DNA from: Chthoniobacteraceae bacterium
Lineage (GTDB): Bacteria; Verrucomicrobiota; Verrucomicrobiia; Chthoniobacterales; Chthoniobacteraceae
Length of the DNA: 64,000 bases
Assembly (NCBI GenBank): GCA_947476045.1
Contig: CANJNZ010000006.1
Location: 1-64,000 of the forward strand
Direction: 5' to 3'
Within the stretch, counting starts at the first letter, position 1. Every line of letters starts with the position of its first letter. A model generated the notes under the pieces. That model was not told where the DNA came from and ran no database searches. It was given only the letters and a program-made list of their open reading frames with translations. Shown piece by piece: positions 34,604 through 64,000 of this stretch. The position numbers were made by a program, and so were the translations under genes.

Positions 34604-34626
34604 TCGAGTTCGGTAAAATTGTGAGA

Positions 34627-35379
34627 TTAGTTCGGACGGCGTGCGCTGAGACGCATTACGATGGGCATCGGCATATCGCTCGGTGGCGGCTGGCTGAGTT
34701 GCAACCCGTTGAGAACTTCGTCGCGAATTGCAGCGTCGAGCGCGCTGTCGCCAGTCGAGGAACCGAGCGTAGCGCGTGTCACTCGTCCCGTGGAATCAGC
34801 CCAAATTCGCACTTCGATCTTCATGCTCGCCATGCGTGTGCGTGGGTTGTTGCGCAGTGCGTCTGTGATCCGCGCCTGCACCTGTGCAGCGTAGCCACCG
34901 AACTTCGATTTATTGTTCGTGACTGGACGCTTGAAAAAAGTGTTTCGATTTCCAGCAGCGATCTGAATGCCACCGCTAGCCGGTCCTTTCACAGCCGTCG
35001 CAACAGCAGGCTCTGGTGGAGCCTCATCTTCTTTCTCCTGCTCCTCCTTCACCATCTCCTCCTTCATTTGTGTGGGTGGTGGTGGTGGCGGTGGTGGTGG
35101 TGGCGGCGGAGGCGGAAGAACCGAAACCATCGTGACGTTCTCCTTTTTGCCACCGCCCGTCTCGGCCTTGGAGAAGACTTTCACTGCAAAAATGATCCCT
35201 GTGATCGTGAGTCCGCTGACGATGAGCGGAGCGAGCCATTTCCGAAAGCCGGTCGCTTTCTCATCCTCATCACCCCAGTCGTCATGGGCGTCCGGAGCAG
35301 GCACCGCCTTCGGCGCATGTTGCGCAACGGGCTTTTCGAGTGTCGCGATATTGCCTTCGTTATCGTGGGTTGAGTTCAT
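34627..35379 (-). CDS. TonB-family energy transducer
   Basis: A 250-residue TonB-like protein. It has a 48-residue cytoplasmic N terminus, one membrane helix (about residues 49-69), a run of about 14 prolines (89-102) and an acidic/basic Glu-Lys stretch that would span the periplasm. The C-terminal domain (about 160-250) reads GGYAAQVQARITDALRNN, then IEVRIWADSTGRVTRATLGSSTGD, then ALDAAIRDEVLNG, the order found in TonB C-terminal domains. The long cytoplasmic N-terminal extension is unusual against E. coli TonB, which has a very short one. It lies directly after two exbD genes in the secretion operon and should carry energy from that complex to an outer-membrane partner. Confidence 0.9.
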   Translation of the reverse strand: MNSTHDNEGNIATLEKPVAQHAPKAVPAPDAHDDWGDEDEKATGFRKWLAPLIVSGLTITGIIFAVKVFSKAETGGGKKENVTMVSVLPPPPPPPPPPPPPPTQMKEEMVKEEQEKEDEAPPEPAVATAVKGPASGGIQIAAGNRNTFFKRPVTNNKSKFGGYAAQVQARITDALRNNPRTRMASMKIEVRIWADSTGRVTRATLGSSTGDSALDAAIRDEVLNGLQLSQPPPSDMPMPIVMRLSARRPN

Positions 35380-35392
35380 GGGAATAGATGTG

Positions 35393-35803
35393 TCAGCGGC
35401 GGGCTCCTGATGTCGCGAGGCCGACTTGTTTGATTCCGAGTTTCACAACGACGCCTAGTGCGTCCGTGACTTTTTCATACTGCGTAGCGCTGCTGCCTTT
35501 GATGATTACGGGCACGTCCGGATTCTCAGCCTTCGCCTGCGTGAGTCGCATTTCCAGCGAAGCGAGTGTGACCGGCTCCTTGTCAAAATACATCGCCCCC
35601 GCGTCATCCACGCTGATGACTTTGAGTTTGCTCTTCTCATCCGTTTTTTTCTGCGGCGCATTGCTGCCACGAGGGATGCCGGCTTTGATTCCCTGAATCG
35701 TCGCCGTGGTCATCAGGATGAAAATGACCAGCAGCACGTAGGCGAGATCGAGCATCGGTGTGATGTTGATGTCGTCGTAAGGTTTGTCGTCTTGAACTTG
35801 CAT
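35393..35803 (-). CDS. ExbD/TolR-family protein, second copy
   Basis: A 136-residue biopolymer-transport protein with one membrane helix and a periplasmic domain. The membrane aspartate that carries protons in ExbD is Asp19 in ITPMLDLAYVLL. The first 31 residues are identical to those of the neighbouring upstream copy, and the DNA at the two starts is nearly identical too, whereas the periplasmic parts have diverged (VISVDDAGAMYFDKEPVTL here). This points to tandem duplication followed by separation of the soluble domain, or to repeated conversion of the membrane part. Only 8 bases separate the two genes. Confidence 0.93.
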   Translation of the reverse strand: MQVQDDKPYDDINITPMLDLAYVLLVIFILMTTATIQGIKAGIPRGSNAPQKKTDEKSKLKVISVDDAGAMYFDKEPVTLASLEMRLTQAKAENPDVPVIIKGSSATQYEKVTDALGVVVKLGIKQVGLATSGARR

Positions 35804-35811
35804 CGTCGTGG

Positions 35812-36213
35812 TTATTTCGAGGCTTTGGTTGCGATTCCGACCTGCGTGATGCCGACCTGGCCGATGACGTTGAGCACGTCCATGATCGCCTGATACTGCG
35901 CTACGCGGTCGCCTTTAAGAATGATGGGCACGTTGGGATACTCCGCCTTGATTTGCGCGAGCCGTGATTCGAGCTCGCCGAGGGTGACGGGCGTTGTATC
36001 GAGGAAAACTTGCCCTGCACCATTGATGGTGATCCCCTTCGCCTTTTTCTCAGCAAGACTCTTGGTGGCCTCGCTGCCCGCAGGCAAATCAGCTTTCAAA
36101 CCCTGCACCGCCGCTGTGCACATGAGAATGAAGATGACGAGCAGCACGTAGGCGAGATCCAACATCGGAGTGATGTTGATGTCGTCGTAAGGCTTGTCGT
36201 CTTGAACTTGCAT
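35812..36213 (-). CDS. ExbD/TolR-family protein, first copy
   Basis: A 133-residue ExbD-type protein with the same N terminus as its downstream neighbour and the conserved membrane Asp19. The periplasmic domain reads GITINGAGQVFLDTTPVTL and then YPNVPIILKGDRVAQYQ, as expected of the ExbD fold. It follows the ExbB fusion gene by 20 bases. With that protein and TonB it should make a proton-driven motor in the inner membrane. Two different ExbD chains could form a mixed dimer in the ExbB pore, as reported for some systems, but that is inference. Confidence 0.93.
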   Translation of the reverse strand: MQVQDDKPYDDINITPMLDLAYVLLVIFILMCTAAVQGLKADLPAGSEATKSLAEKKAKGITINGAGQVFLDTTPVTLGELESRLAQIKAEYPNVPIILKGDRVAQYQAIMDVLNVIGQVGITQVGIATKASK

Positions 36214-36233
36214 GGCGTGGTGTTCCTTTCTGT

Positions 36234-38069
36234 TTACTCGCCCTTGTCCTTGTAAAATTCGGCCATCTTCGTGACGAACTCATCAATGAAGATGTGCATG
36301 TCGTCCTTCGCGTCCTTCACGCGCGAGAGAATGTAGTTGTAGCCAAATAGCGAAGGAATAGCGACGGCGAGACCGGCGACGGTCGCGAGCAACGCAGCAG
36401 CGATACCGGGCGCGATGGCGTTCACGTTCACTTCGCCGGCGGCGGCCACGGCGGCGAAGGTAATCATCACACCGACGACTGTTCCGAGCAGACCGAGGAA
36501 CGGGCCGCCGGAAATGCAGATGGTGAGCAGCACGATCAGCTTGTTGATTTTCTGCGTCTCGCGAACGAGCCCGCCGTCGAGCGCAGCGCGGATTGCCTGA
36601 ATGCTGCGGCCTGCGAGACCGCGACGCACTCCCACTTCGCGATCCACGGCCATACGGTGGCGGATTTCTTCCACGCCGATGTGGTAGATGCGATACACCG
36701 ACGAACGGCGCAGGCTTTTTGCGTTCTCTTTGGTCACGCGCCCGCCGAGCGATTTGGAAGTCTCAACGTCATCGCTATCGAGAACGGTGAGGTCGGATGC
36801 AACATGGCGCCACTCCCGCATGAAAATCTCATTTCCCTTCGCAATTCCGTTCAAATAACGCGTTTTGCTGACCATCACATACCAGCTCATCACCGCCATG
36901 ATCGCGAGGATGATGATGACCGCCCAACCGTCAAAAGTGAGGTTGGCGATGATGACGGCGAACGTGCCGGTCGTCAGCCAGCTCAGCCAATTGGTTGGCT
37001 TCTCATCGGCGCCAAGCAAGATGGTCTTCGGGCCTTTCTCGCCGCCTTGCGAAGCTGCTGCGAGTCCGATCCAGCCAGCGGGGCGTGCGACTTTGTGGAT
37101 TTGCAGTTCGTCCAGTTCACCAGTGAATGGTGTTGCTCCAGAAGTTTTATCGCCGCCGAGGATGAAATTGCCGTTGATGGCGGGAAGGCCCGCCCCGACA
37201 GCGTTGGCGACTTCGCCATTTACGAAAAGCGTGGTCTTTGTGCCATCGCTCATCACTGCGATGTGTGCCCAGGAACCTGGCTGCAAGGGCTGCGGTGCAG
37301 CGGCGCGCTGGCCGGAAATTTCGACATAGGGCGCGCCTTTATCCACGCCGACTACGAATGAGTTTTTGTCGTCGCGGCGACTGAGGATGACGCCATTTGG
37401 CTGCGTTGCCTTCGCCCACACGGTGATCGTCGTTGGCGAATTACCCGTCCACACCAGCGAGCCGGATGCGGCAATCGGCACGTTGATTTTCCCGTTGAAA
37501 GCGACGCCGCTGCCGATTTGCGCACCGTCGAGTTTTCCGCCTGCGGATTCTGTGGTGTTGTTGCTCTTCGTGGAGTCACCGGCGTTCTGTCCGCTCTCAT
37601 TGAAATGGAATACGAGCACGGTGTCCGCGTCGAAGCTGCCCTTTGCATCATCAGCCTTCGCCGCCTTCGCATCGTTCGAGCCAAAATACATCCAGAACGT
37701 CGTTTTTGCGTTTGGTTTTACGTCGGGCAGCTTCACCCACACGTAGGCTTCGCCCATCAACGCATCAATTTTTTCGACGTGATGCGTGAGCAGCGTCTTG
37801 CCGTCCTCGGCAACAAAACGGAGGTCGCTCAAATCTTCCTTTGCCAGCGGATAGCCATCGCCGAAAAGTCGCACGAGCACCGTGCTCGCACCGATGGGCT
37901 CGGCGACATTTCCGCCAGCCGCCGTGGTGTCCACGGTGACTTTCTTGCGCATCGTCCACGCGCCATCCCACCAGTCACCGGCATGGGCGGCTGCACTGAG
38001 CAAAAGCCCGGCGACAGCGACGGCCATCAGTTTCATCCAGTTTGTTTTCGTTGTGCGTGCGATTTCCAT
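36234..38069 (-). CDS. DUF2341-LamG-ExbB fusion: proton channel with large periplasmic lectin-like domain
   Basis: A 611-residue protein that joins an ExbB/TolQ/MotA channel to an exported domain. Residues 1-30 are a signal peptide ending AHA. Residues 32-135 match DUF2341 (WWDGAWTMRKKVTVD, then VWVKLPDV, FWMYFGS). Residues 145-340 are a LamG/concanavalin-like domain (ITVWAKA, GSWAHIAVMSDGTKTTLFVNGE, GELDELQIHKVARP). Three membrane segments follow at about 382-402, 512-543 and 553-575, with GGPFLGLLGTVVGVM and APGIAAALLATVAGLAVAIP as the ExbB/TolQ hallmark. The usual ExbB has no such periplasmic N-terminal part. It starts 30 bases after the TpsB stop codon, tying the motor to this secretion route. 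Confidence 0.92.
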   Translation of the reverse strand: MEIARTTKTNWMKLMAVAVAGLLLSAAAHAGDWWDGAWTMRKKVTVDTTAAGGNVAEPIGASTVLVRLFGDGYPLAKEDLSDLRFVAEDGKTLLTHHVEKIDALMGEAYVWVKLPDVKPNAKTTFWMYFGSNDAKAAKADDAKGSFDADTVLVFHFNESGQNAGDSTKSNNTTESAGGKLDGAQIGSGVAFNGKINVPIAASGSLVWTGNSPTTITVWAKATQPNGVILSRRDDKNSFVVGVDKGAPYVEISGQRAAAPQPLQPGSWAHIAVMSDGTKTTLFVNGEVANAVGAGLPAINGNFILGGDKTSGATPFTGELDELQIHKVARPAGWIGLAAASQGGEKGPKTILLGADEKPTNWLSWLTTGTFAVIIANLTFDGWAVIIILAIMAVMSWYVMVSKTRYLNGIAKGNEIFMREWRHVASDLTVLDSDDVETSKSLGGRVTKENAKSLRRSSVYRIYHIGVEEIRHRMAVDREVGVRRGLAGRSIQAIRAALDGGLVRETQKINKLIVLLTICISGGPFLGLLGTVVGVMITFAAVAAAGEVNVNAIAPGIAAALLATVAGLAVAIPSLFGYNYILSRVKDAKDDMHIFIDEFVTKMAEFYKDKGE

Positions 38070-38099
38070 GTGAGTCGTTCGTAAAAAAAGTGATGTGGT

Positions 38100-39812
38100 T
38101 TAAAAGTCCGCCCACAGGCGGAAATTGACGCGCGTGTCGTGCGCTTGCGTGGTGCCTATCGTGGTGAGCGGCAGGGCCAGTTCGACGATGCCGTGGAAGT
38201 GATCGAAGAACTCCACTTCGCTGCCGATGCCGAAGCTCGCTAAGCGGTAGGAGGAATCCTGCTCCGGCAAAGTGTCGTGCAGCGTGAGCGTCCCGGCGTC
38301 TGCAAAGGCGTAGAATCGCCATTCGTTGCCCGTGCTTTCTTCGACCTCCTCCTCCACCCCTTGGAGGTTCTTCTTCTTCACCATACGCTTTGTTTTCAAA
38401 AGCGACGGAGTGCGGAGTTCAAATGTGCCGAAAATTGCATTGTCGCCGAGCGCCTCTGCTTCCTTGTAGCCGCGAGCCGTGCCCATGCCGCCGCCGCCAA
38501 ATTGCTCGCTGTTCACCAGCGGCTGATCCGAGGCCTGCCCCTGCAATTTCAAGAACATTTCCCAGCCGCGCCCAAGCTCCTGCGTGTGCGAAATGTCGCC
38601 ACGGAAATAGATGAAATTCCCATCCGCTCCGAAGCGATTGCGATCCAGCTCCGACGCTTCGCTGCCCGTGCCTCGGATGCCGAGCGTGACTCCGGCGCTG
38701 GCGGTCGTTGCGCCTGTATCCACGCGTTTCGTTTTTCCGGGATTTGCCGCGTCCGCCACGTCGCGACTGTGCAGCCATGTTCCATCCCATGTGGCGCTGA
38801 CCGGGTAGTAAGTGATGGGCGTTTTATCCGTCGTGAGGCCGATGGTGACTGCCTGATCAAAGCGCTTCCAATCCAGACCGAGGCTGAACGATTGGTAAAA
38901 GCCATCCTGCGACGGCAAAGTGAACATCCCGCGAAGACCGAAAATTTCCCCGCGCCCAGCAGATGCCACACTGCCAAGCGTCGAAACATTACTGTCCTGC
39001 TTCGTGCCCGTGAGCATGAGGCTGAACGAATCAATGTCGCGGAAACGCCAGAGGTAATATGCGGAGAACACCTTCACCTCGCTCGTGTCCTGCGGCGACA
39101 TCTGGTAGCTCGCACCAATCGTGTGGCCGACCTGCCAGAGGTTTGCGTAACTGAATGATCCACTGAGACGGAGGTCGGTCGTGTTGGCGCTCGCGCGGTT
39201 GTTTAGTTCGACGTTGCCATGAAATGGGGATTTGTCCTTCACGAGCAACTCCACATCGTAAAGCCCGGGTTCGTCTTCGCGTGCTACAAGCTTCGGCTGC
39301 ACACTGCGGTCGGGGTGCTTATTCAATGCCGCGATATCCCGCTGCACGTCGTTGAAATTGATCACTTTTCCCTCCGCTAAAGAGAGCGCCTTGGCCTTGA
39401 TTTCACTCGGCAGGAAATATCGTGCGCCCTTCACGCGAAGGCTCGCCACTTTTCCATCGATGACCTCCAGCAGCACGACTCCACCATTACCGCTCTGCTC
39501 CGCCACCATCTGGACACGCGTTCCGCTGAAACCTTTTCCATCATACACCTTTTGAAGCGCATTAGCCGCGTTCTGAATGTCAGCCACCGTCCGGCCCGGC
39601 CCTAGAAATGGATAGACCGCCTCTTCAATCTCAATACGAGGGATATGCTTCGCCCCGAGAACCCGAAACTCGCGGATGAACATCGTCTTCTCCTGCTCTT
39701 CTGCACTAAGCTGCGTAGTGCAGAGCAGCGCTGAAAGAGCCGACCACAGAGCCACGCGCATCCCCCTGCGGTTTGCAGGCGTAGAGATTTGAAAGCGAGC
39801 GCTCAGGAACAT
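38100..39812 (-). CDS. TpsB/FhaC-family outer-membrane transporter
   Basis: A 570-residue two-partner secretion transporter. I use the ATG at 39812, which starts an n-region followed by a hydrophobic signal ending QLSA near residue 40; an alternative ATG at 39761 gives a more compact signal peptide. POTRA domains follow: FIREFRVLGAKHI...VYPFLGPGRTVADIQNAANALQKVYDGKGF (about 47-105), then the second with VASLRVKGARYF and GKVINFNDVQRDIAALN. From about residue 200 the chain is a beta-barrel (NVELNNRASANTTDLRLSGSFSYANLW is the typical first barrel region), with the conserved GRGEIFGLRG and a C-terminal strand ending LWADF. It is the expected exporter for the giant adhesin encoded at the far end of the same operon. 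Confidence 0.93.
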   Translation of the reverse strand: MFLSARFQISTPANRRGMRVALWSALSALLCTTQLSAEEQEKTMFIREFRVLGAKHIPRIEIEEAVYPFLGPGRTVADIQNAANALQKVYDGKGFSGTRVQMVAEQSGNGGVVLLEVIDGKVASLRVKGARYFLPSEIKAKALSLAEGKVINFNDVQRDIAALNKHPDRSVQPKLVAREDEPGLYDVELLVKDKSPFHGNVELNNRASANTTDLRLSGSFSYANLWQVGHTIGASYQMSPQDTSEVKVFSAYYLWRFRDIDSFSLMLTGTKQDSNVSTLGSVASAGRGEIFGLRGMFTLPSQDGFYQSFSLGLDWKRFDQAVTIGLTTDKTPITYYPVSATWDGTWLHSRDVADAANPGKTKRVDTGATTASAGVTLGIRGTGSEASELDRNRFGADGNFIYFRGDISHTQELGRGWEMFLKLQGQASDQPLVNSEQFGGGGMGTARGYKEAEALGDNAIFGTFELRTPSLLKTKRMVKKKNLQGVEEEVEESTGNEWRFYAFADAGTLTLHDTLPEQDSSYRLASFGIGSEVEFFDHFHGIVELALPLTTIGTTQAHDTRVNFRLWADF

Positions 39813-39885
39813 AGTGCGACAACTTAAAAGCGCTTTCGTGACAGTCGTATGGCAGAGCGGAAACGATCCAGTGAAAGTGAGCGCT

Positions 39886-40575
39886 CTACGCATCCAAACG
39901 GTAGCCGAACCCACGCACCGTCTGAATATGCTCCGCAGCAGAGCCGAGTTTATCGCGCAGGCGGCGCAAATGCGTGTCCACAGTGCGAATCTCGATCTCT
40001 GTCTCCGCCCCCCACACAATCCCTACCAATTCATCCCGAGAGAAAACGCGCCCCGGCTGACGAAACAGCGCGGCGAGCAACTTGAATTCAGCAGCCGTCA
40101 AATCCACGCGCTTCCCCTTCACCTTCACCTCATGCCCATCGAGGTCGAGAATGATATCGCCCACACTTGAATAGCGGACGACCGGCGCAGGTCCCGTGCG
40201 ACGGGACAGGATGGATTTCACACGCAGCGTCAGCTCGCGCGGACTGAAAGGCTTCGTCACGTAATCGTCCGCTCCAAGTTCGAGGCTCACAATGCGATCC
40301 ACTTCATCCTTCCGCGCCGTAAGCATGATAATCGGGATATGCGCAGTGCGCGGTTCACTTTTCAGCGCACGCAAGACATCGGTGCCACTCATGTGCGGCA
40401 TCATCAAATCCAGCACCATCAACGCCGGCTCATTCTTGCGCGCCTTTTCCAGCGCCTCCCGCCCATCGCTGGCGTGCGTCACTTGATAACCCGCCGCCGT
40501 CAGATTCTGCGAAACCAGCTTCACGACATCCTCCTCATCGTCCGCCACCAAAATCTGCTGAATCAAAGCGCTCAT
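39886..40575 (-). CDS. OmpR/PhoB-family response regulator heading the secretion operon
   Basis: A 229-residue DNA-binding regulator. The receiver domain covers residues 6-120, with the acidic pair DDEED (12-16), the phosphorylation site Asp56 in LMVLDLMMP, and the Lys in VTKPFSP. The winged-helix output domain covers about 130-228 (VDLTAAEFKLLAALFRQPGRVFSRDELV, then RTVDTHLRRLRDKLG and the C-terminal hairpin VRGFGYRLDA). I start at MSALIQQ because the family begins there. No histidine kinase is encoded near. It lies 73 bases upstream of the TpsB gene on the same strand and may control the operon; its target sites are unknown. Confidence 0.92.
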   Translation of the reverse strand: MSALIQQILVADDEEDVVKLVSQNLTAAGYQVTHASDGREALEKARKNEPALMVLDLMMPHMSGTDVLRALKSEPRTAHIPIIMLTARKDEVDRIVSLELGADDYVTKPFSPRELTLRVKSILSRRTGPAPVVRYSSVGDIILDLDGHEVKVKGKRVDLTAAEFKLLAALFRQPGRVFSRDELVGIVWGAETEIEIRTVDTHLRRLRDKLGSAAEHIQTVRGFGYRLDA

Positions 40576-50292: not shown

Positions 50293-52554
50293 CTATTCGG
50301 CTTTGAACTTGATGTCGTCCATCCGTTTGCCGCTGGGCGAGAGGATGCGGGCTTTGGCGGTCCAGCCGCCGGTCCAGTTGATTTGTTTAATCAAGAGTTG
50401 GTTCCAGCCTTCGTTGAGCTGGATGTCGGTTTTTTCGCCTTCGCTGAGGTTGCGTTTGGCGTTGGCGCTGTGGATGAGTTTGCCGTTGAAGAAGGTTTTT
50501 TCGCCGTCGTTGGTGGTGGTGAAAAGATGGGCGGGCTGTGCTTTCGGGGAGTAAATCTGGCAGCGGAAGTAGCCGACCATGTGTTCGCCGAAGCCGGGGT
50601 AGCTGCCGAAGTTGACGTTCCAGACGACGTCCGGTGGCTGAGGCTTTTTGAACGGAATCCACGTGGCGGGTTGATTTTTTTCGGGGGCGAATTCGACGTC
50701 GAAGAGGTCTTTGCCGATTTTGCCTTCGACTTTGTAGGGGCCGGAGAGGCTCCAGTCGCTGATCCAGCCTTCGATGTTGATCCAGTCATACTTGGCGCGT
50801 GAGGTGCCGCCGATTTTCTGGTTCCCGAAGTAGAGGGCGCTGTTGAGCATGAAGGTTTTCTCGAACATCAGGGGCTGGGTGTAGACGGGCGAGTCCTGCG
50901 TGGGCTCGGAGTCGTCGAGGGTGTAGTGGATTTTTCCGCCCTGTGGATTGGCGGCAGCGAGGGTGACTTTGAGTTTTCCGCCGAAGACCATGCGTCCGGT
51001 GAGGAAGTTTTGCGCACGGACGACTGCGCCGCCATCCACGCCGTCCATCTGCATTTTCACCGGAGTGGAAAGACGGTCGGCGCGCTCGCGACTCTTTTCC
51101 TTCATGGCTTTGTATTCGGGGGTGTTGTTGATGTTGTCGGGGCCCCATGTGCGCTCGGAACGGTGGGAGACGTTTTGCGCCCAGCCGTTGACGATGCAAA
51201 CGGCACTCATCTGCCACATCATGCTGCTTGCGCCGAGGACGCGGTCGGTGCGTTTGAGGACGGAGCCGTTGCACAGATACATGTTCCAGTTGGGCTCTTC
51301 GTTCCAAGGCACGGTGATGGTGGTCCAGCCCTGTTTTTGGTATTCGTGCGCGACGGCGTTGGGATACCAGATGAGGGGGATGATGTCGTTTTTGAGCCGC
51401 GCGTCGTTGGGGAAGTTTTCGTAGGCGATGGTGAGTTTGCCGTATTTGCGGAGCATGTCGGCCATGCGCTTCATGTGGACGACGTAGATTTCGTAGCCGT
51501 TGCGGACGGACTGTGCGTCGTTGGGAATCGCGTGGCGGCGCTTGTAAATTTGCGCCCTCGGGCCTGCGCCGGTGCCGTTGTTCGCCTCGTCGCAGCCGAT
51601 GCAGAAATAGGGTGCGCTTTTGAAAATGCTGCACATCTCGGCGACGATGGTGTCGAGGCCGAGGTAGAGACGCTCGCTCGCCATGTCCATGCAACCGGGG
51701 CCGTTGAATGGATGACCATAGGCCCGCGCCATTGCCTGATGGTGGCCGGGGGTTTCGAGTTCCGGCACGATGCCAACTCCGCGCGCGGAGGCGAAGGCTT
51801 CGAGTTCTTCCATTTCCTCCCACGTCCACACTTTCGGCGGGACGCCTTCGCAGCATGAACCGTTTTTGCTGCCGAGCTTGGGATATGCCTTCGAGGGCAT
51901 GCTGTAACCCTGATCGTCGCCAACATGCAGTTGGATGTAGCGAACTTTGTAGAGGCGGCAGTTCTCGACGAGGACTTTCAAAGTATCCACCGGGATCCAT
52001 TGGCGCCCGCAGTCAATCATCGTGCCGCTGAAGTCAGCTTGCGGCCAATCCTTCACCTTCATTTGTGGGATGGAATATTTTCCTTGCTGCTCGACGATGC
52101 TCAGCAAAATGCTCGCAGTTCCTTCGCATACGGCGCGGGTGTCCCATCCCTCCACGACCGCCGTGTCGGTGACGGAAATCGTGTGCGCCATGTCGCGCGT
52201 CTTCACGAGTTGCATGTCCTTTGGCGCGAGAATGTCTTCGTCGGCCTGGATGGCGGGGTTGATTTTTAGGACGATGTCTCCCGCTTTCGGGCCGGCATTG
52301 ACCTTCGCCAGCTTGAGATTGGTGAGCGTCCAAATTTCCTCCTGCAACGCGGAGGCGTGTGCTTCGAGCTTCGGGTCGAGCACGACGATCCGGGATTGTG
52401 CAGTGAGAGGCATGGAGCCCGCGCCCATCGTGATTTGCTTCGGCGCTGGGATGATCGTGTGCGCTGCCCCAGCAGCGGAAAGCGGGAGGCTCGTGCAAAT
52501 CAATGCGGTGATTGCGGCCAGCGTCATCATCTGGATTTTCGTGAAAGTTTTCAT
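50293..52554 (-). CDS. Exported GH20 beta-hexosaminidase-like enzyme, divergent active site
   Basis: A 753-residue secreted protein. The signal peptide ends near residue 28 (PLSAAG). Residues 32-165 form the GH20b N-terminal domain and residues 170-490 the GH20 barrel (FSGTMIDCGRQWIPVD; VRYIQLHVGDDQGYSMPS; VPELETPGHHQ). The Asp-Glu pair is Asp322-Glu323, but the usual HIGGDE is CIGCDE here, so two active-site neighbours have become cysteines. After the barrel comes a chitobiase_C-like strand (IHYTLDDSEPTQDSPVY) and a long beta-rich C-terminal domain ending in a sugar-binding-like fold (FRCQIYSPKAQPAHLFTTTNDGEKTFFNG). It probably removes GlcNAc or GalNAc. Likely the third gene of the operon begun at 56776. 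Confidence 0.85.
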   Translation of the reverse strand: MKTFTKIQMMTLAAITALICTSLPLSAAGAAHTIIPAPKQITMGAGSMPLTAQSRIVVLDPKLEAHASALQEEIWTLTNLKLAKVNAGPKAGDIVLKINPAIQADEDILAPKDMQLVKTRDMAHTISVTDTAVVEGWDTRAVCEGTASILLSIVEQQGKYSIPQMKVKDWPQADFSGTMIDCGRQWIPVDTLKVLVENCRLYKVRYIQLHVGDDQGYSMPSKAYPKLGSKNGSCCEGVPPKVWTWEEMEELEAFASARGVGIVPELETPGHHQAMARAYGHPFNGPGCMDMASERLYLGLDTIVAEMCSIFKSAPYFCIGCDEANNGTGAGPRAQIYKRRHAIPNDAQSVRNGYEIYVVHMKRMADMLRKYGKLTIAYENFPNDARLKNDIIPLIWYPNAVAHEYQKQGWTTITVPWNEEPNWNMYLCNGSVLKRTDRVLGASSMMWQMSAVCIVNGWAQNVSHRSERTWGPDNINNTPEYKAMKEKSRERADRLSTPVKMQMDGVDGGAVVRAQNFLTGRMVFGGKLKVTLAAANPQGGKIHYTLDDSEPTQDSPVYTQPLMFEKTFMLNSALYFGNQKIGGTSRAKYDWINIEGWISDWSLSGPYKVEGKIGKDLFDVEFAPEKNQPATWIPFKKPQPPDVVWNVNFGSYPGFGEHMVGYFRCQIYSPKAQPAHLFTTTNDGEKTFFNGKLIHSANAKRNLSEGEKTDIQLNEGWNQLLIKQINWTGGWTAKARILSPSGKRMDDIKFKAE

Positions 52555-52590: not shown

Positions 52591-54435
52591 TTACTTGGTT
52601 TTGGCGGTCTTGCCTCCATCGAGTCGTTTGTAGCCGACGCGCGAGACTGCGCCGACCTGCTTGCCATTGCGGAAGAGCGCGGCGTGAACGACCGCTGTAT
52701 CCTCCAGACTCACCGGCGCGGAATACACCGGCGATTTTTCCGTAGGCTCCGAGCCATCCGTGGTGAAGTGGATTTCACCAGCGGGAATGCCATCGGCGAG
52801 CGCGATCTTCACTTCGGTTTTTCCGTTAAAGGTATAGTTGCCCGTCACCGGCCACGCGCGGTAGCCGACAGGCGCGGCTGTGATGCGCACAGGGAAAAGG
52901 AGCGTCTGAAGTATCGCACGGGTGGCAGCGAGTTTCTTGGTGGACTCAGCGGGGTCGGTCTTCACCGTCGGCGACCACGCGCCGTCCATGTGATCACCGA
53001 TGCTGAGGATGTAACCCTCGGTGCTGGATCCGTTGAGTTTTCCACCGAGGAAATCACTCACCACCGCGCTCGCGCTCATCTGCCACATCGTCGTGGCACC
53101 GCCGAGCACTCTGTCCTGCACGGTGCGAACCGTGCCGTTGCACTCAAACATATTCCATTTCTGCAACTCCGGGCCGCGTTCCCACGGAACGGAAATGATG
53201 GCGTGCCCTTTCTTTTTATTCTCCTCGCTCATCGGATACGGAACCCACGACATGATGACCAAGTCGTCCTTTTGCGATGCATCGAAGATGGTGCCGTTCT
53301 CCCACGCGAGAGTCATCTTCCCGCGTTTGCCGACCATATCAATCATCCGCGCCTGATGCTGCACGATGACATCCGAAATGGACTTCATCCCCTTCGCATT
53401 CATGTAGGCGATGCCTGCGGCTGATTCCTCCAACTCGTAAAAATACGGCTCCTCGCCGCCGATGTGAAAATACGGCGAACTTTTGAAAACGTCGCACATT
53501 TCGCCCACGAGCGTGTCGAGACTCTTATACATTCCGTCATTGATGACGTTCATGATTTTCGGCCCCGCAAAAACCTCTGGCATCGCGCGGCACATGGCGT
53601 CGGCGTGATTTGGCGTTGCGAGTTCCGGCACGAGCGTCACGCCGCGCGCGTCCGCGTATGCGACGAGATCTTTCAATTCTTGCAGACCATAAACAACCGG
53701 GACGATGCCCTCGTGCATCGAAGTATTCTTTGTCCCGAGCTTCGGAAATGCTGTGGACGGAAATGTGAATCCTTCATCGTCCGTGAGGTGCAACTGGCAG
53801 TAGCGCACTTTCCACAAGCGGCACGCCTCGACCACGGCCTTCAACGTATCCACCGGGATACGCTGCCGAGCGACATCCACCATCGTCCCCGTGTAGTCTG
53901 CGTGCGGCCAGTCTTGGACTGTCATCTTGGGCAGCGAAACGTTTCCGCCTTTAGCCGAGATGGCTTGCAGTAGTGTCGCCGTCCCTTCGCAAACCGCGCG
54001 GTAATCCCATCCCTCGACGAGTGCGCTGTTGGCGACCGTGATTGCATGGGCGAAATTTTTCGACGGCGCGACAACCGGCTTTGCCCCCTGCTTTTGCGTC
54101 GCGAGGATGTCCTCGCCTGCCTTGAGCGCCGGGTTGATTTTTAAAACGATGTCGCCGAGCTGAGGCGCTGCGGTGCTGACGTTCACCTTCAGCCCCGTGA
54201 GCGATCCGATTTCATCGGCAAAGATGGCCGCCAGTGGCTGAAGACTCTTGTCCGTGGCTACAATGTTGGTTTTCGCCGTAATCGCCATCTCGCCGCCGGT
54301 GACTTTCAGCACCTTGGGAGTCGGCACAATCAGCGGTGCATCCTGCGCATTGAGGTTGGGAACTAGAAGCCCGACCAGCGCAATAAGCGCAGCGGTGAAT
54401 GAATGCGGGACAATGGTTTTAATCGTGTGAGTCAT
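52591..54435 (-). CDS. Exported GH20 beta-hexosaminidase-like enzyme with Glu-Glu catalytic pair
   Basis: A 614-residue secreted protein. The start at MTHTIKTI is chosen because a signal peptide follows (cleavage near residue 30, NLNA). It has a GH20b domain (34-175), a GH20 barrel (180-520; DYTGTMVDVARQRIPVD, RYCQLHLTDDEGFTFPS) and a chitobiase_C-like tail (GEIHFTTDGSEPTEKSPVYS). The catalytic HIGGDE motif is HIGGEE (Glu328-Glu329): the Asp that orients the substrate N-acetyl group in substrate-assisted catalysis is replaced by Glu. The PELATPNH motif also has Asn for Gly. The enzyme may be altered in specificity, or act on a sugar without an N-acetyl group, or be weak. It is 36 bases upstream of the other GH20 gene. 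Confidence 0.85.
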   Translation of the reverse strand: MTHTIKTIVPHSFTAALIALVGLLVPNLNAQDAPLIVPTPKVLKVTGGEMAITAKTNIVATDKSLQPLAAIFADEIGSLTGLKVNVSTAAPQLGDIVLKINPALKAGEDILATQKQGAKPVVAPSKNFAHAITVANSALVEGWDYRAVCEGTATLLQAISAKGGNVSLPKMTVQDWPHADYTGTMVDVARQRIPVDTLKAVVEACRLWKVRYCQLHLTDDEGFTFPSTAFPKLGTKNTSMHEGIVPVVYGLQELKDLVAYADARGVTLVPELATPNHADAMCRAMPEVFAGPKIMNVINDGMYKSLDTLVGEMCDVFKSSPYFHIGGEEPYFYELEESAAGIAYMNAKGMKSISDVIVQHQARMIDMVGKRGKMTLAWENGTIFDASQKDDLVIMSWVPYPMSEENKKKGHAIISVPWERGPELQKWNMFECNGTVRTVQDRVLGGATTMWQMSASAVVSDFLGGKLNGSSTEGYILSIGDHMDGAWSPTVKTDPAESTKKLAATRAILQTLLFPVRITAAPVGYRAWPVTGNYTFNGKTEVKIALADGIPAGEIHFTTDGSEPTEKSPVYSAPVSLEDTAVVHAALFRNGKQVGAVSRVGYKRLDGGKTAKTK

Positions 54436-54550
54436 CGTAGTGAGGTCTTCGGGGTGATAGTTACTTTGTTTTAAATTGGTTCTTAGGCGGAAACGGCGGG
54501 CGTAATGGTGTGGCGTTCGGGAAAAGGCAATCTCATTGCTGTGTTCGTCG

Positions 54551-56776
54551 CTATTCAAGGCGATACAAGTGTGTTGCTCCGTCTCCCTGTGGCAAAAAGG
54601 TGGTCGCGTTTTCCGCAATGACCCTGCCCGTGAAGAGATTCGTCACCTTGCGCGGCTTGGGTAGCGTGATCGGCTGTATGCAGTCCACGATGTGCAGCGC
54701 GAGCAGTGAGCGATTCATGAAAAGGATGTCGTTGTTTGTCGAATAGACGGAGCATCCCGCGTCGCGGCACATCGTGCGGAAGAGATCCGGGTGATTCGGC
54801 GGTATGGCGAAATAATAGGCCGTGTAGTTTTTGTGACGCTTTACCGCCGCGCCCGGCGTGCCGTCGGGCCAGTAGGCGAGCACCACGGCATCGGGATCAT
54901 CCGGGACAAGGCGCGGGCCGATGACTGCGCCGGAGCCGAGTGTGATCTTGGTCTTCACTTCGCGCAACACGGCGTCGTCATAGTTTTTCGGCGTCAGTTC
55001 TCCGCTGACTCGATGTTCATCGAGTTTGAATTTCATCCCCACGAGTTGTGATGCTGCTTCGACATCGAGGCCTTTGTCCGTGGCCAGTCCGGGATAGCCG
55101 ACAAAAATCAGCGCGCGTCCATCGCACTTGAGCGCCTCGACTGCATCGCGCTGTTTTTTGGAAAGCCAGTTGGCGTTGTAGAAAAAAAGCGTCTTGTATC
55201 GCTCCATCGCCTTGGCGTCCAAGTCGTCGGTCATCAGCCAGTCCATCGGCACGCCGCTGCGATACAATTCACGCGTTGCACGGTCACATTGCAGATCGAG
55301 CAACGGCGGGTAATTGTTCACGTCGTGCATCCGGGCGAGCGGGTGATAAGCAGGGCCAACACCGCTCACGAAGCACGCGACCTCGGCCACACTCGTCATG
55401 TCCCAAGCCACTGCGTCGCGCGCGATTTTCGCCTGCTTTGCAAACTCTGTGACAATCTCCGGTGCATCGAACCAGCCGCCGGTCATGTCGAAATTCCACC
55501 AGCCCGTGCCGTGGATGATATGATGGCAAAACTCGCGCCGCAGCACGTCCACCGACTCCGCCAGATCCTTCAGCGGACGCAGTTCCAGAAGGCCGTTGGC
55601 CGTCCAGCGGATGTTGGAGTGATCCTTAAGCAAGTGTGTGCGGATGTCGGACTCATTAAAATAATACTTCCCCGCGCGCTGCACACTCTCCACCGGCAGC
55701 ATGAATGAACCCGGCCCGCCCGGCCCGCGATTGTCGTAGCTCGTGATGCCCGTGACGAAATCAATGTGCGGACTTTCCAAAAGTCTGCGCAACCCGAGAT
55801 GCCCGTTGGCCGCAGCCGCGTTGACGAGCCCCGTCTGCCACATGAGGTAGCTGCTGAATGCGCCAACGATGCGCTTGCCGCCCGTGGCTTCCTTCACGGC
55901 GGAGCACCATGATAGCTGGCAGTCCGCCACGATGTCCGAAAGACAAAGATCGAAATCTATCGCCAGTTGATCCTTCGCCGGATCGCGCAGGATGCCGGGC
56001 GACCCACGACGCCGTGCAGGCTCCAGCGGCAACTCCACTTTTTCGATCCACGACTGAGCGCCATATTTTTTCGTCAGCCATTCTTTGAAGTAGCGCTTCG
56101 CCGGCGGGCTGTAGTCGGGGACCATCCCCAACTGCGCGCCCCAATACACCCACTCCTCGCTGCCGCCGGAATTGAGCATGTAGCCCAGCACCCGATCCGC
56201 ATACGGACTGTTCTCCACCACTTGCACAAATGCGCGGAGCATTTTTCCGACATCGTCATTCCATTTCTTCGACGCCATCGAGGCCTGACGCGGATTACGA
56301 TAATCAGCAAAAAAAGCTGGCGGCTTGTCTGGATCATTCGCGTAGCGGGTGACTTCGTCCGGGTTTTGATCCGCCCACCACGGAGGTGTGAGCATCGTGT
56401 TCAAGCGCGGAATCATCCACACGTCCTTCGTGTGCTCGCCGAGCCGCTTCGCGTTCATCTCAAACGCAGAGAAATCGTATTTGTCCGGTCCGAGCCAAGC
56501 CGGCCCCGCGCTGATGAAAAAAATCGGGAACCCCGCATCGGCAATGTCCTTCCAGACTTTCAAGCTGCCGTGTCCGTAATAAGACATCCCCGGAATCGGC
56601 TGCCCGTCCACAAAGATCGCCGTGCGGCCCATGTGCGGTTTGATTTCCACACGATGCCCGGCCTTCAGCACAGGTGGCTCGGCCCGCAGCGAAAACATCC
56701 CCATGGAAAGCGGGACTGACGACGCAAGCAGACCCTTCAAAAGTGCGCGGCGGGAAATTTCAGCGGGTTCGATCAT
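54551..56776 (-). CDS. Tat-exported GH42/clan-A glycosidase-like protein
   Basis: A 741-residue protein. The start at MIEPAEISRRALLKG gives a Tat leader (SRRALLKGLLASSVPLSMG), so export in folded form is likely. Residues 45-420 resemble a clan GH-A barrel, close to GH42-type beta-galactosidases: DVWMIPRLNTMLTPPWWA early, the candidate acid/base in NSGGSEEW (Glu207 or Glu208), and the candidate nucleophile Glu in YYFNESDIRTH. Residues 450-640 are a beta-galactosidase-trimerisation-like, glutamine-amidotransferase-fold region (VPMDWLMTDDLDAKAMERYKTLFFYN). A beta-rich tail ends the chain. Family assignment is tentative. It is the first gene of the minus-strand glycan operon and faces the divergent set at 57075. 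Confidence 0.65.
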   Translation of the reverse strand: MIEPAEISRRALLKGLLASSVPLSMGMFSLRAEPPVLKAGHRVEIKPHMGRTAIFVDGQPIPGMSYYGHGSLKVWKDIADAGFPIFFISAGPAWLGPDKYDFSAFEMNAKRLGEHTKDVWMIPRLNTMLTPPWWADQNPDEVTRYANDPDKPPAFFADYRNPRQASMASKKWNDDVGKMLRAFVQVVENSPYADRVLGYMLNSGGSEEWVYWGAQLGMVPDYSPPAKRYFKEWLTKKYGAQSWIEKVELPLEPARRRGSPGILRDPAKDQLAIDFDLCLSDIVADCQLSWCSAVKEATGGKRIVGAFSSYLMWQTGLVNAAAANGHLGLRRLLESPHIDFVTGITSYDNRGPGGPGSFMLPVESVQRAGKYYFNESDIRTHLLKDHSNIRWTANGLLELRPLKDLAESVDVLRREFCHHIIHGTGWWNFDMTGGWFDAPEIVTEFAKQAKIARDAVAWDMTSVAEVACFVSGVGPAYHPLARMHDVNNYPPLLDLQCDRATRELYRSGVPMDWLMTDDLDAKAMERYKTLFFYNANWLSKKQRDAVEALKCDGRALIFVGYPGLATDKGLDVEAASQLVGMKFKLDEHRVSGELTPKNYDDAVLREVKTKITLGSGAVIGPRLVPDDPDAVVLAYWPDGTPGAAVKRHKNYTAYYFAIPPNHPDLFRTMCRDAGCSVYSTNNDILFMNRSLLALHIVDCIQPITLPKPRKVTNLFTGRVIAENATTFLPQGDGATHLYRLE

Positions 56777-57074
56777 CGCCTGACAACCTCCCCTACTCAC
56801 AAATGTTTGAACCATTCTCGATATCACCACGGGCTTCACGAGCGACGGAGCGAAATGTATCAGTAGTGGCTGTATCGGTAAAAATCTTCGTGAGCAAACA
56901 TTCTAAGCTTTCCCTCGCAACATGATTCGTGCAGTTCGTTCCGCTCCTCTGGCATATTGTTTGTGCATTTCGTTTCCAACGGACTGGACAAACAGGGCCG
57001 GGAAGAACAATTCCATCATCGCAAACAATAAGTGCGCTGACGGAAAAACATCAAAACACCAACCCAAGTAAAAA
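56777..57074. other. Divergent promoter region of the glycan-degradation genes
   Basis: 298 bases between the leftward GH42-like operon and the rightward gene set. No gene is supported. It contains a direct repeat (56856-56880), listed separately, that may be an operator serving both sides. Confidence 0.45.
56856..56880. promoter_or_regulatory. Direct repeat TGTATCNGTA, candidate operator
   Basis: TGTATCAGTA and TGTATCGGTA lie 15 bases apart start to start, so they face different sides of the helix by about half a turn. Direct repeats of this size are typical of AraC-type sugar regulators. The site lies about 80 bases before the leftward start. The regulator is not in the window. Confidence 0.35.
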
Positions 57075-59261: not shown

Positions 59262-59396
59262 AAAGGCACTCCAAAATGCTCTTCGCCTTTCCATCAACCG
59301 AATTCAGATTCCTTCTAAAGTATAACCATTGCGATGGTGATCACCCGCAATTCTCTGCGTCAGCTTTCACCGCCCCTCATCCGTCTCCAAACTCCA

Positions 59397-62300
59397 ATGA
59401 AAAATCTCTGCACATTCCTCTTTGTAATTTGCGTCTCTGCTTTCACCGCGCTGGCAGATGAACCGCCGTTGAAACTGCTCCCGACCCCGAAATCGGTGCA
59501 GTTGGCCGGCGGGGAGATGTCGCTTTCTAAAACCAGCCGTATCGTGGCGACGGATGCGTCGCTCAAGCCGCTCGCGGAAATTTTGTCCGAGGAAATCCTG
59601 CTCGCCACCAAGCTCAAACTCACGCCAGCGGACGGCGAGGCGAAGCCCGGCGACATCGTGCTAAAGCTCAATCCGCAACTGCGCGCGGATGCGGACATCC
59701 TCACGGTGCAGGGTCGCGATGTGAAGAAGGTGCGTGATTACGCGCACGCGATTCATGTGGGAGACATGGCGGTGGTGGAGGGTTGGGACTACCGCGCTTG
59801 TTGCGAAGGAACGGCGACGCTCTTGCAGGCCATGCGACTAAAGGGCGATGCCGTCTCGCTGCCGAAGATGGAGATCAAGGACTGGCCGCACGCGGACTAC
59901 ACCGGCTACATGCTGGACATCGCACGTCAGGGAATGCCGCTCATGGGCCTGCGCGACTCCATCGAGGCGATGCGCTATTACAAAGTCCGCTATCTGCATC
60001 TGCATTTTCACGACGGCAGCGGGTTTTATTTTCCGCTGAAGAAATATCCGCAGGCAGGTTCGCACAATGGGGCGATCAACAATGGCGATGCGTTCAAGTC
60101 ATGGGACTTGGAGGAGTTGAAAAAGACCGTTGCCTATGCCGATGCTCGCGGCGTGACGCTCGTGCCGGAGCTGGAGACGCCGGGACATTGCGAGGCTCTG
60201 ATGGAGGATTTGAAAGTGGGCGACAAGTGGCTGCTCGGCGATCCCGGGATGCACATGATGGACATCGTCAATGATGACATTTACCCGGTGCTGGATGATG
60301 TGGTGAAGGAGATGTGCGAGGTGTTCAAAAGCTCCCCGTATTTTCACATCGGCGGCGACGAAGTGCAGTGGGAGTGGTTCATTGATCGCCCGCACGTGAA
60401 GGAGTTCATGAAGAAGGAAGGGATGCCCGAGAAAGACAAGGGCGGGAAGGACGAGCTGCTGAAACGGCACGCGCTGAAGATGGATGCGATCGTGAAGAAG
60501 TATGGAAAGAAGACGATTTTCTGGGGCGGCTACCAAGGGCCACCGACGGATCCGGCGCTGAAGGATTTGATCATGTATTCGTGGTATGTCGGCGCGCAAA
60601 AGGCGATTGATGCGGGCTTCACCATCATCACCGTGCCGTGGGAAATCCGTGGGCCGCATGAAAAGTGGAACATCTACAGCGCAAACGCCGATATGCTGAA
60701 TCGCAGTGCGAGCGTGCTCGGTGGCGCGCGCGTGGCTTGGGAGCAGAGCGCGGAGACCTACATCAACGCCAGCATCTACGAAGCAATCCGGCAGGAAGGC
60801 ACATGGGCTCCGGACACCGTGACTGCGAGTCTGGACGAACTCAAAGCGCGAGAGAAGACTCTCGCCGAGCGTCTCGCGAAAATTATACGCCCGGTGAAAA
60901 TCGAAGTGCAGGCCGGCAAGTCAGAAAAATCCGAATACGGACGCGATCCCGCTGCTGGCAGGGCGACGATTTCCATGTCGGCCACGTTGCCGCCGAACTG
61001 CAAAATTCATTATACCGTTGATGGCTCGGAGCCGACCGCCAAATCCCCGCTCTACGACAAGCCAGTGCAGACGCTCGGCAGACTGCGAGTTCGCGCGGCG
61101 ATGTTCGACGCGGATGGTCGTTCCGTCGGCGGTTACACTTTCGCGGAGAAATACAATTGGAAGGACTACGAGGAAAATCTGACCACCGGCAAACCCGTGA
61201 AATCATCCGGCATCGCAGGCACTGGCAAGGACGCCGAAGTGCCGGAGAACGCAGCGAACGGCTGGGTCGGCAATGGCAAGATGTGGGGCGCGTGGGATCC
61301 GCCGCAGTGGTGGCAGGTGGACTTGCAAGCCGAGCACGTTTTGGATCGCGTGCATCTTTTCTTCTACGTTCAGGGCGAACGCGCCTTTCAATACAACGTC
61401 GAGCTTTCGACCGATGAGAAGCAGTGGAAAAAGGTGGTGGATCAAAGCGAGAACGATCAACCGGCGACCGGGCAGGGAAAACTCCACACATTTGAGGCCA
61501 CGAAGGCCCGCTATGTCCGCGTGAACATGCTGAAGAACAGCATCCAAAACGCGGTGCAGTTGGAGGAGGTGCGCGTGTATGAGGAGGGCAGACCGGATTC
61601 CTTTGGCAACCTCGCCAACAGTCAGACTTTCAAGGCCGACAAACGCTATCTGGTTTTCCCCCGCCCGAATGGATTGAAAGGAAAGAACAAGGTCTTTGTG
61701 AAACTCGATGGTGAACTTTTCTTCGCCGAGTATGACGCGATGCTCGCGAAATCAGACCCGGATTTCTGGACGTATATTGACTTGAAATTGCATCAGGGCA
61801 AACAGGTCACGGTCAGCGCGACGGGGCCGGACGCGGAGGGAATTGCGCTGGTGAAAATGAGCGACACGATTCCCGGCAAGCATCCGCTCTACCACGAGCC
61901 GGGACGTCCGCAGGTTCATTTCACTCCGCTGCGCGGCTGGCTGAATGATTCCTCGGGGATGTTCTATCTCAACGGCAAGTGGCACTATTACTACATGAAC
62001 ACGCGGTTCGGGAACCAGATGGCCGGCGTGAACAACAACTGGTCGCACGCAGTGAGCACCGACCTGCTGCACTGGACCGAGGAACCGATGCTGCACACGA
62101 TCATTCGCGGCAAGCAGTGCTATTGGACCGGCTCCGCTGCGGTGGATGTGCAAAACGCCACCGGCCTCGGCAAGCCGGGTAAGCCCGCGGTGGTCTTCGC
62201 ATGCAATCAGGCGTCCGATGTGCCGAATCCTTTCACACAATGTTTCTTCGTCAGCACCGACGAGGGCATGACGGCGAAAATTGATCCCGACATGATGTAT

Positions 62301-63311
62301 AAGGCGCTGCCGAAAGAGGACGATCGCCGTGGCGACGGAAGTCGCGACGACATGATCCGCTGGTATGCGCCGGATAAGAAATGGATCCTGCTCATTTACA
62401 ACAAAGCGCAGACACCCGGCGCGAAACGCAGTTTCTTTTTCTTTGAATCGAAAGACCTCAAGACGTGGACGGAGACGAGCGTGCTGGAAGATATGTATGA
62501 GTGCCCGAACTTCGTGCAGATGAATCTCGACAGCGACGCCAGCAAACCGATGTGGGTCGTGTGGGGCGCGTCCACCGAATACCGCGTAGGCAATTTCGAC
62601 GGGAAGAAATTCACACCAATCCACGACGGCGTGTTCCTTGCCCACCATGGCGACTACTACGCCTCGCAGGTTTTCGACAACGCACCGGACGGACGCAAAA
62701 TCCAAATGGGCTGGGGCTGGGTTTGCAACTACAAGACCGAGTTCACGCAGATGGCGACCTTCCCGATGGATCTAAGTTTGAAGAGCACGCCGGAAGGTCC
62801 ACGTCTCTTCGCTGAATTCATTCCCGAGCTCGCCAAACTGCGCGACGGTGGCAGCAGCAAGAAGGATGTCGTCATCAAAGCGGATGCTCCCATGAGTCTC
62901 GGCGACGTGACACAGCCGATGGAAATAGATGTGGAATTTGAACCCGGAACCGCCAAACGCGTGTCCCTCACCGGCGCAGAGCTGAGCGTGAAATGGGACG
63001 CGGAAACGCAGGCCGTGGAAGTGCAGGGTGTAAAGGAGTATAAAGTGACCGTGCCTCGCGACAAAGGCAGGCCCGCGCCAAAAGTGATTGCCGCTCCACA
63101 AAACGGCCGCGTGCGACTCCACGTGCTGCTCGATATTCCCTCGGTCGAAGTCACCACCAACGGTGGCGAGCACTACATCATCAAAGGACGCGATTTCAAA
63201 AAGCTCGGCGAGAAATCCGCGCTGCAAATTACAACCGAGGGCGGCGACGCCACCTTCCGCCGCCTCGATGTCTATCCGCTCAAATCCATCCAGCCTCCCG
63301 CGCCGAAATAA
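59397..63311 (+). CDS. GH20-chitobiase_C-F5/8-GH32 fusion glycosidase
   Basis: A 1304-residue secreted protein. I start at MKNLCTFLFV, which opens a signal peptide ending ALA. Order: GH20b domain (25-160); GH20 barrel (165-510) with the canonical HIGGDE pair Asp321-Glu322 and PELETPGH; chitobiase_C strand (IHYTVDGSEPTAKSPLYD, about 540); discoidin/F5/8 domain (about 600-740, WWQVDLQAEHVLDRV, RYVRVN, QLEEVRVYEEG); then GH32 from about 835 to 1300. The GH32 residues are the nucleophile Asp851 in GWLNDSSG, Asp984 in SRDD (transition-state stabiliser, normally RDP), and acid/base Glu1035 in MYECPN. Spacings of 133 and 51 residues match GH32. Joining hexosaminidase and fructosidase activities is unusual. 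Confidence 0.92.
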   Translation: MKNLCTFLFVICVSAFTALADEPPLKLLPTPKSVQLAGGEMSLSKTSRIVATDASLKPLAEILSEEILLATKLKLTPADGEAKPGDIVLKLNPQLRADADILTVQGRDVKKVRDYAHAIHVGDMAVVEGWDYRACCEGTATLLQAMRLKGDAVSLPKMEIKDWPHADYTGYMLDIARQGMPLMGLRDSIEAMRYYKVRYLHLHFHDGSGFYFPLKKYPQAGSHNGAINNGDAFKSWDLEELKKTVAYADARGVTLVPELETPGHCEALMEDLKVGDKWLLGDPGMHMMDIVNDDIYPVLDDVVKEMCEVFKSSPYFHIGGDEVQWEWFIDRPHVKEFMKKEGMPEKDKGGKDELLKRHALKMDAIVKKYGKKTIFWGGYQGPPTDPALKDLIMYSWYVGAQKAIDAGFTIITVPWEIRGPHEKWNIYSANADMLNRSASVLGGARVAWEQSAETYINASIYEAIRQEGTWAPDTVTASLDELKAREKTLAERLAKIIRPVKIEVQAGKSEKSEYGRDPAAGRATISMSATLPPNCKIHYTVDGSEPTAKSPLYDKPVQTLGRLRVRAAMFDADGRSVGGYTFAEKYNWKDYEENLTTGKPVKSSGIAGTGKDAEVPENAANGWVGNGKMWGAWDPPQWWQVDLQAEHVLDRVHLFFYVQGERAFQYNVELSTDEKQWKKVVDQSENDQPATGQGKLHTFEATKARYVRVNMLKNSIQNAVQLEEVRVYEEGRPDSFGNLANSQTFKADKRYLVFPRPNGLKGKNKVFVKLDGELFFAEYDAMLAKSDPDFWTYIDLKLHQGKQVTVSATGPDAEGIALVKMSDTIPGKHPLYHEPGRPQVHFTPLRGWLNDSSGMFYLNGKWHYYYMNTRFGNQMAGVNNNWSHAVSTDLLHWTEEPMLHTIIRGKQCYWTGSAAVDVQNATGLGKPGKPAVVFACNQASDVPNPFTQCFFVSTDEGMTAKIDPDMMYKALPKEDDRRGDGSRDDMIRWYAPDKKWILLIYNKAQTPGAKRSFFFFESKDLKTWTETSVLEDMYECPNFVQMNLDSDASKPMWVVWGASTEYRVGNFDGKKFTPIHDGVFLAHHGDYYASQVFDNAPDGRKIQMGWGWVCNYKTEFTQMATFPMDLSLKSTPEGPRLFAEFIPELAKLRDGGSSKKDVVIKADAPMSLGDVTQPMEIDVEFEPGTAKRVSLTGAELSVKWDAETQAVEVQGVKEYKVTVPRDKGRPAPKVIAAPQNGRVRLHVLLDIPSVEVTTNGGEHYIIKGRDFKKLGEKSALQITTEGGDATFRRLDVYPLKSIQPPAPK

Positions 63312-63317
63312 CTTCGC

Positions 63318-64000
63318 ATGAAAACACACCATCATTTCATCAAAGCCATCGCGCTCGGCATTCTCGCCACCTGCCCTCTTGTTCAAGCAGCAGAGGACTC
63401 CAAGCCGTCGGTGTTGGAATTGCGGACGTCCTCGTGGCTCTTCAACTCCGCGCAGGCTGCGCACAGCACGCTCACCGCGCAGGCACCACAGGCGGAGTTT
63501 GCGGCACCCGCAAATACGAACGACGGCTTCACAATCAAGCTGACTGCGGATTTGAAAAAGTTCGACGCCGACAAAACCATCCTCGATGTGCCCGGTGTGC
63601 TTAGCGTGCGTCTTCGCAAGCACAGCCCCTCGGATCGAAATCGTCAGAATTATCCGGCCTTCAAAATGCCCGACGGCTCGGTGCCGGTGCTCGAAGCAAA
63701 CCTCACACTTCATTCAGCAGAGCATCCGAAGTGGCAGGGCATGACCATCGGCATCCCGCTCGCGCTGCTCAAACAGCCCGAAGGTAAACACGACATCGTG
63801 CTCAATTTCTCCGGTGTGCGCTGGACGATGGTTGTGGACGGCCAGTTGCTCGATAACGACTTTCCGTTCGGCTATCCCACGTGGGCGGAGAAGAACACAT
63901 GGAAGCTGGACGCGGAGTTTGTGAGCAAGGCGGAGATTTTTCTCCCAGCCATCAAACCCGAGGAGAAACTCGCGAAGACAGGCGAAACTGCGCCTGTCCA
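63318..64000 (+). CDS. Exported LamG-like protein, cut by window end
   Basis: The gene starts at MKTHHHFIKAIALG, 6 bases after the GH20-GH32 stop codon, so the two are surely co-transcribed. The signal peptide ends VQA near residue 24. The 227 residues seen show a jelly-roll-like domain: RTSSWLFNSAQAAHSTLTAQ, then VPGVLSVRLRKH, then GKHDIVLNFSGVRWTMVVDGQLLDNDFPFGYP. This resembles LamG/concanavalin-like domains that precede catalytic domains. The chain continues beyond the window, probably into a glycosidase such as another GH32, but that is not visible. Confidence 0.85.
   Translation, partial: MKTHHHFIKAIALGILATCPLVQAAEDSKPSVLELRTSSWLFNSAQAAHSTLTAQAPQAEFAAPANTNDGFTIKLTADLKKFDADKTILDVPGVLSVRLRKHSPSDRNRQNYPAFKMPDGSVPVLEANLTLHSAEHPKWQGMTIGIPLALLKQPEGKHDIVLNFSGVRWTMVVDGQLLDNDFPFGYPTWAEKNTWKLDAEFVSKAEIFLPAIKPEEKLAKTGETAPV

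Follow-up and report, generated by a model that had tools for sequence, protein, structure and literature searches.

The fused gene and its neighbourhood

The window analysed here is a stretch of 64,000 nucleotides from a lake-dwelling Chthoniobacteraceae bacterium (contig CANJNZ010000006.1). Towards its end an open reading frame scan finds 1304 uninterrupted codons (59397-63311, + strand) that join a GH20 to a GH32 enzyme. An alternative upstream start is possible at 59334 and would yield 1325 aa; the opposite strand of the gene also has long open stretches. The features of the locus are as follows.

50293-52554, - strand: GH20 paralog a, 753 aa (Pfam)
52591-54618, - strand: GH20 paralog b, 675 aa (Pfam)
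59397-63311, + strand: fused GH20-GH32 gene, 1304 aa, signal peptide at about residues 1-20 (open frame, Pfam, 98% identical copy in a second genome)
59472-60638, + strand: GH20b and GH20 catalytic domain, residues 26-414, with D321-E322 at 60357-60362 (Pfam; predicted model)
60972-61124, + strand: CHB_HEX_C_1 domain, residues 526-576 (Pfam, E 3.3e-10)
61230-61565, + strand: F5/8 type C domain (discoidin, CBM32-like), residues 612-723 (Pfam, E 4e-18; phmmer)
61593-61622, + strand: fusion junction, residues about 733-742, reading YEEG up to the join and RPDSFGNLANSQTFKADKRY after it (ends and starts of stand-alone paralogs)
61629-61892, + strand: small beta domain ahead of GH32, residues 745-832 (beta strands in the predicted model; conserved in GH32 relatives)
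61917-63275, + strand: GH32 N and C domains, residues 841-1293, with D851, D984 and E1035 (Pfam; predicted model)
63318-64000, + strand: next gene, a 689-aa secreted protein that continues beyond the window and equals L010:7319-9388 (sub-threshold GH32N match)

The chain runs from a signal peptide through GH20b, GH20, CHB_HEX_C_1, F5/8C (discoidin) and a small beta domain to GH32. All six Pfam matches exceed their curated cut-offs: Glyco_hydro_20b (residues 26-163), Glyco_hydro_20 (168-414, E 3.8e-37, 128.9 bits versus a cut-off of 22.3), CHB_HEX_C_1 (526-576), F5_F8_type_C (612-723, E 4e-18, 66.2 bits versus 28.2), Glyco_hydro_32N (841-1130, E 2.2e-38, 133 bits versus 22.1) and Glyco_hydro_32C (1144-1293, E 8.6e-5, 23.1 bits versus 21.9). 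The phmmer matches of the F5/8C domain include CBM32 chains such as 2jd9. The small beta domain has no Pfam match of its own and occupies the DUF4980 position of other GH32 proteins. Pfam and the open frame agree with the original prediction of GH20 and GH32 catalytic domains on one 1304-residue secreted chain, and the discoidin domain that it had placed between the two catalytic parts is recovered at 612-723.

The GH20 half carries HIGGDE at 317-322, which supplies D321 and E322; this pair, R177, H264 and W376 show little or no variation across 29 aligned relatives. The predicted model of this half (pLDDT 84.6) has the chitobiase 6yhh as its best PDB match (Z 36.0, 440 residues, rmsd 2.7) and suggests an ordinary GH20 fold, a TIM barrel. 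The mechanism is presumably substrate-assisted and retaining, with D321 positioning the acetamido group and E322 serving as the acid. GH20 beta-N-acetylhexosaminidases (6yhh FjGH20, 7cbn Am0868, 8pxu Akkermansia) have GH20b, the TIM barrel, the HIGGDE pair and the equivalents of Arg177, His264 and Trp376 in common with the fused protein, whereas the latter adds an F5/8C domain and then a GH32 module, and its stretch aligned to GWDE reads WGGY.

Several neighbours deserve mention in their own right. In GH20 paralog b the motif corresponding to HIGGDE reads HIGGEE (HMGCED in a relative, L094), so that the catalytic Asp-Glu pair of this paralog is changed although the gene is retained. Within the same GH20 cluster a 762-aa frame (54551-56839, - strand) shows a Tat-like signal and no Pfam match. 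The 689-aa protein, encoded between the fused gene and a stand-alone GH32 gene, has no RDP motif. Further away (20405-31828 and 32600-40019, both - strand) a 3807-aa frame lies near a Porin_5, a LamG-ExbB fusion and a ShlB/POTRA protein, a neighbourhood that is possibly a two-partner secretion system.

Origin and conservation of the fusion

How did the two enzymes come to lie on one chain? The same genome encodes GH20-CHB-F5/8 proteins without GH32 (on C18, C2 and C58) that are 47-55% identical to the N-terminal half. Stand-alone GH20-F5/8 paralogs terminate in VRVFEAGKP, LRVYEEGK or VNAWEPGK, each followed by a stop, where the fused chain reads VRVYEEGRPDSFG. The mature chain of the stand-alone GH32 starts at the position matching the fusion junction. 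This secreted enzyme (576 aa, C6:65394-67124), encoded two genes and 2.1 kb downstream of the fused gene, is 58-61% identical to the fused C-terminal half, and the fusion has nothing equivalent to the signal peptide of this enzyme. A GH20-CHB_HEX-F5/8 gene reads in frame, with no stop, into that part of a GH32 gene which encodes the mature chain, so that one signal peptide serves both enzymes. The GH32 tree groups the three fused domains in a single clade (100/99), next to which stands the stand-alone type (97/93); fused and stand-alone members together make up a seven-member clade whose stem is long, at 1.34 changes per column. The fused GH20 half is nested among GH20-F5/8 paralogs. The simplest explanation is thus one fusion event and, judged by its relatives, the gene is derived from two neighbouring kinds of gene, one of the GH20-F5/8 type and one of the GH32 type.

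The entire fusion is present in G001 (CAIYUV010000247.1), at 98% identity over residues 1-1304, on a contig from the uncultured Spartobacteria MAG Umea_bin-08385, which represents a second species of the genus. In a third MAG a contig (L034, CAMBUD010000075.1) begins within the fused gene and, at 85% identity, reads across the join without a change of frame, with the F5/8 domain reduced to about 45 residues and the GH20 half off the contig. The complete fusion is known from only two species of one genus, L034 covering the junction and the GH32 side. The original prediction had named a missing stop or an assembly join as its weak point; this is rejected, because the whole fusion recurs in a second MAG and the junction in a third contig. 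G001 retains the upstream GH20 genes and differs in the region directly after the fused gene, the 689-aa gene and the GH32 gene lying on a different contig. The MAG of L034 (G424) is labelled Planctomicrobium piriforme, and its label or binning is doubtful, since its genes are closest to this Spartobacteria cluster.

Between the genomes G000 and G001 the fused gene shows 165 nucleotide differences and only 30 amino-acid differences. The GH20 half has a dN/dS ratio of 0.068 and the GH32 half one of 0.048 (NG86 method, dS 0.15-0.20); by this measure both halves are under purifying selection and are kept so in two species, and decay of one half is rejected. Third-position GC is level across the join, with no step. 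Inspection of the junction sequence found neither a signal peptide nor a convincing internal start, which argues against separate translation of the GH32 half.

How widespread is the architecture? Among the matches listed from 384 genomes of the class, 388 of the phylum, 392 of Planctomycetota and a 97-genome sample of relatives, samples that overlap, with two candidates scored for each genome of the phylum, no GH20-GH32 protein was found outside this clade. The architecture is rare in the sampled class, phylum and Planctomycetota genomes. A literature search by title or abstract found no published GH20-GH32 protein, and the architecture appears to be new, built from known parts. Twenty long GH32 frames of the class, considered as further fusions, held no GH20 by similarity; on Pfam scanning, long GH32 frames resolved into GH32-GH32, GH172-GH32, sulfatase-GH32, WD40-GH32, Ig-/LamG-GH32 and other combinations. 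Long GH20 frames in G425 and other genomes held no GH32 by similarity, and a 1038-aa GH32 frame in G425 proved to be a stand-alone GH32 in a 744-codon frame plus upstream noise. G425, a Lac Pavin Planctomycetota MAG (the genome of L035), has 102 matches to the fused protein across many contigs; most are GH20 and GH20-CHB-F5/8 proteins and amount to a very large GH20 expansion.

Active site of the GH32 half

The GH32 half contains WLNDSSG at 848-854 (D851), SRDDM at 982-986 (D984) and YECPNF at 1034-1039 (E1035), and these three carboxylates align with the known GH32 catalytic triad of nucleophile, RDP Asp and ECP Glu. Inactive residues in this part, raised earlier as a reason for doubt, were not found, and the catalytic residue numbers first given (Asp321-Glu322, Asp851, Asp984, Glu1035) were exact on recheck. 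The predicted model (pLDDT 88.8, pTM 0.91) matches the endo-inulinase 3sc7 (Z 40.3, 442 residues, rmsd 2.4), the exo-inulinase 1y4w (Z 39.5) and 8i12 (Z 39-40), and points to an ordinary GH32 fold of propeller and sandwich. The five-bladed propeller, the beta-sandwich and the triad are common to GH32 inulinases and levanases (8i12, 1y4w, 3sc7, 9h8i, BT1760), whereas the fused GH32 has DSSG for DPNG, RDD for RDP and a loop 1 that is two residues longer and has no equivalents of Gln57 and Trp65.

That the motifs are altered had been claimed from the start, and the comparison sharpens the claim: of the 43 GH32 domains compared across these genomes, the three fused copies alone carry DSSG and RDD, and RDP is present in 39. 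The fused GH32 has neither the complete WxNDPNG nor the complete RDP consensus, which are typical of the family rather than defining, and retains the catalytic D and the RD letters as well as the ECP and (F/W)(S/T)G motifs. The unfused stand-alone paralog of the same genome reads WLNDPSG and RDP.

Loop 1 has diverged further. Its typical form is LFFQHNPxGxxWGN; the fused copies read YYYMNTRFGNQMAGVNN and the unfused sisters SYANTRFSNLMAGPNN. The rewritten loop of the fused GH32, YYYMNTRFGNQMAG, has no Gln or Trp, and alignment with 1y4w finds the equivalents of Gln57 and Trp65 absent. The loop is rewritten and the conserved Gln lost in all seven clade members, unfused sisters included. Gln57 of the exo-inulinase contacts fructose. 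Trp65 points into the exo-inulinase pocket, and the endo-levanase BT1760 likewise has a loop 1 without Trp (PMC6560043). The original prediction added that this part may cleave something other than fructan; because of the BT1760 precedent, an altered linkage or an endo-acting enzyme would explain the loop 1 change just as well as a different sugar.

Proposed function, substrate and related fusions

What might the fused protein do? We consider it probable that this is a genuine, once-formed fusion whose product is a secreted two-headed glycosidase. Going by their residues, both halves are likely to be catalytically active, and DSSG, RDD and the rewritten loop 1 could mean that the GH32 half is weakly active or acts differently. 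The N-terminal half would remove terminal beta-linked N-acetylhexosamine, and the F5/8 domain may anchor the chain on a glycan. The C-terminal half would act as a retaining GH32 glycosidase, with D851 as nucleophile, D984 as stabiliser and E1035 as acid/base, on beta-fructofuranosyl or closely similar linkages in a pocket that is changed relative to inulinases. Tethering would most likely serve a heteroglycan or particle that holds both sugars, for example a fructose-bearing bacterial or algal exopolysaccharide. We infer that the halves may act jointly on one glycan and that the GH32 specificity may have changed. The fuller claim, that the protein is dedicated to depolymerising in two steps an aquatic glycan not yet described, made of N-acetylhexosamine and furanoside, and that its GH32 half has a new specificity, we regard as doubtful.

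It is somewhat unlikely that the halves do not cooperate, the fusion merely saving an export signal while separate glycans of the digested biomass are attacked. Joining seems easy in this group, since GH32 is fused to many other partners within the class (GH32-GH32, GH172-GH32, sulfatase-GH32), and unfused GH20 and GH32 paralogs exist in the same genome; yet the fusion is retained whole with both halves conserved, and the closest GH32 partner lies in the same locus. We would also call unlikely a scheme in which the GH32 half belongs, together with its unfused sisters, to a subfamily that cleaves another furanoside or related sugar instead of beta-fructofuranosides, with RDD and DSSG as tuning. 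The loop 1 and Gln changes in seven of seven clade members, the long stem branch and the restriction of DSSG and RDD to fused copies fit it, but the three catalytic carboxylates, the RD of RDP, ECP and (F/W)(S/T)G are all retained, and the nearest folds are all fructan enzymes. That assembly or binning wrongly joined two adjacent genes is scarcely credible: the tails of the GH32 genes are indeed repeated (80% identity across about 200 bp), and contigs of G001 take a different course at this tail, but the junction lies 1.7 kb upstream of it, G001 has the same frame and protein sequence there, L034 is continuous, and silent differences separate the copies.

Enzyme fusions often reveal bonds that co-occur in glycans found in nature. 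If hexosaminidase and fructosidase are a conserved pair, they would indicate an undescribed lake polysaccharide with fructose and amino sugar, and the clade offers a small, testable GH32 group with an altered active site. The original prediction held that the two activities are not known on one glycan; this is contradicted by the capsule of E. coli K4, whose GalNAc-GlcA backbone bears fructose as a branch (PMC5317027). A chondroitin-like (K4-type) substrate is nevertheless unsupported here: GH88 is absent from the genome and PL8 has no match in it, the latter a weak absence as control genomes gave no PL8 match either. GH20 is overrepresented in Verrucomicrobia MAGs from Lake Mendota (PMC5615132).

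Other glycosidases have been placed ahead of GH32 in related bacteria. In the same genus and family GH172 (DUF2961) is fused to GH32 (L045:1725-4973 and L062:1-3261); these proteins carry the same small beta domain as the GH20-GH32 fusion and differ in that their first module is GH172 instead of GH20. A described GH172 member also acts on fructosides. In Bifidobacterium dentium DUF2961 and GH32 genes lie in one operon (PMC8605356). Finally, a 1729-aa frame at L054:4388-9574 (- strand) joins sulfatase domains to GH32.
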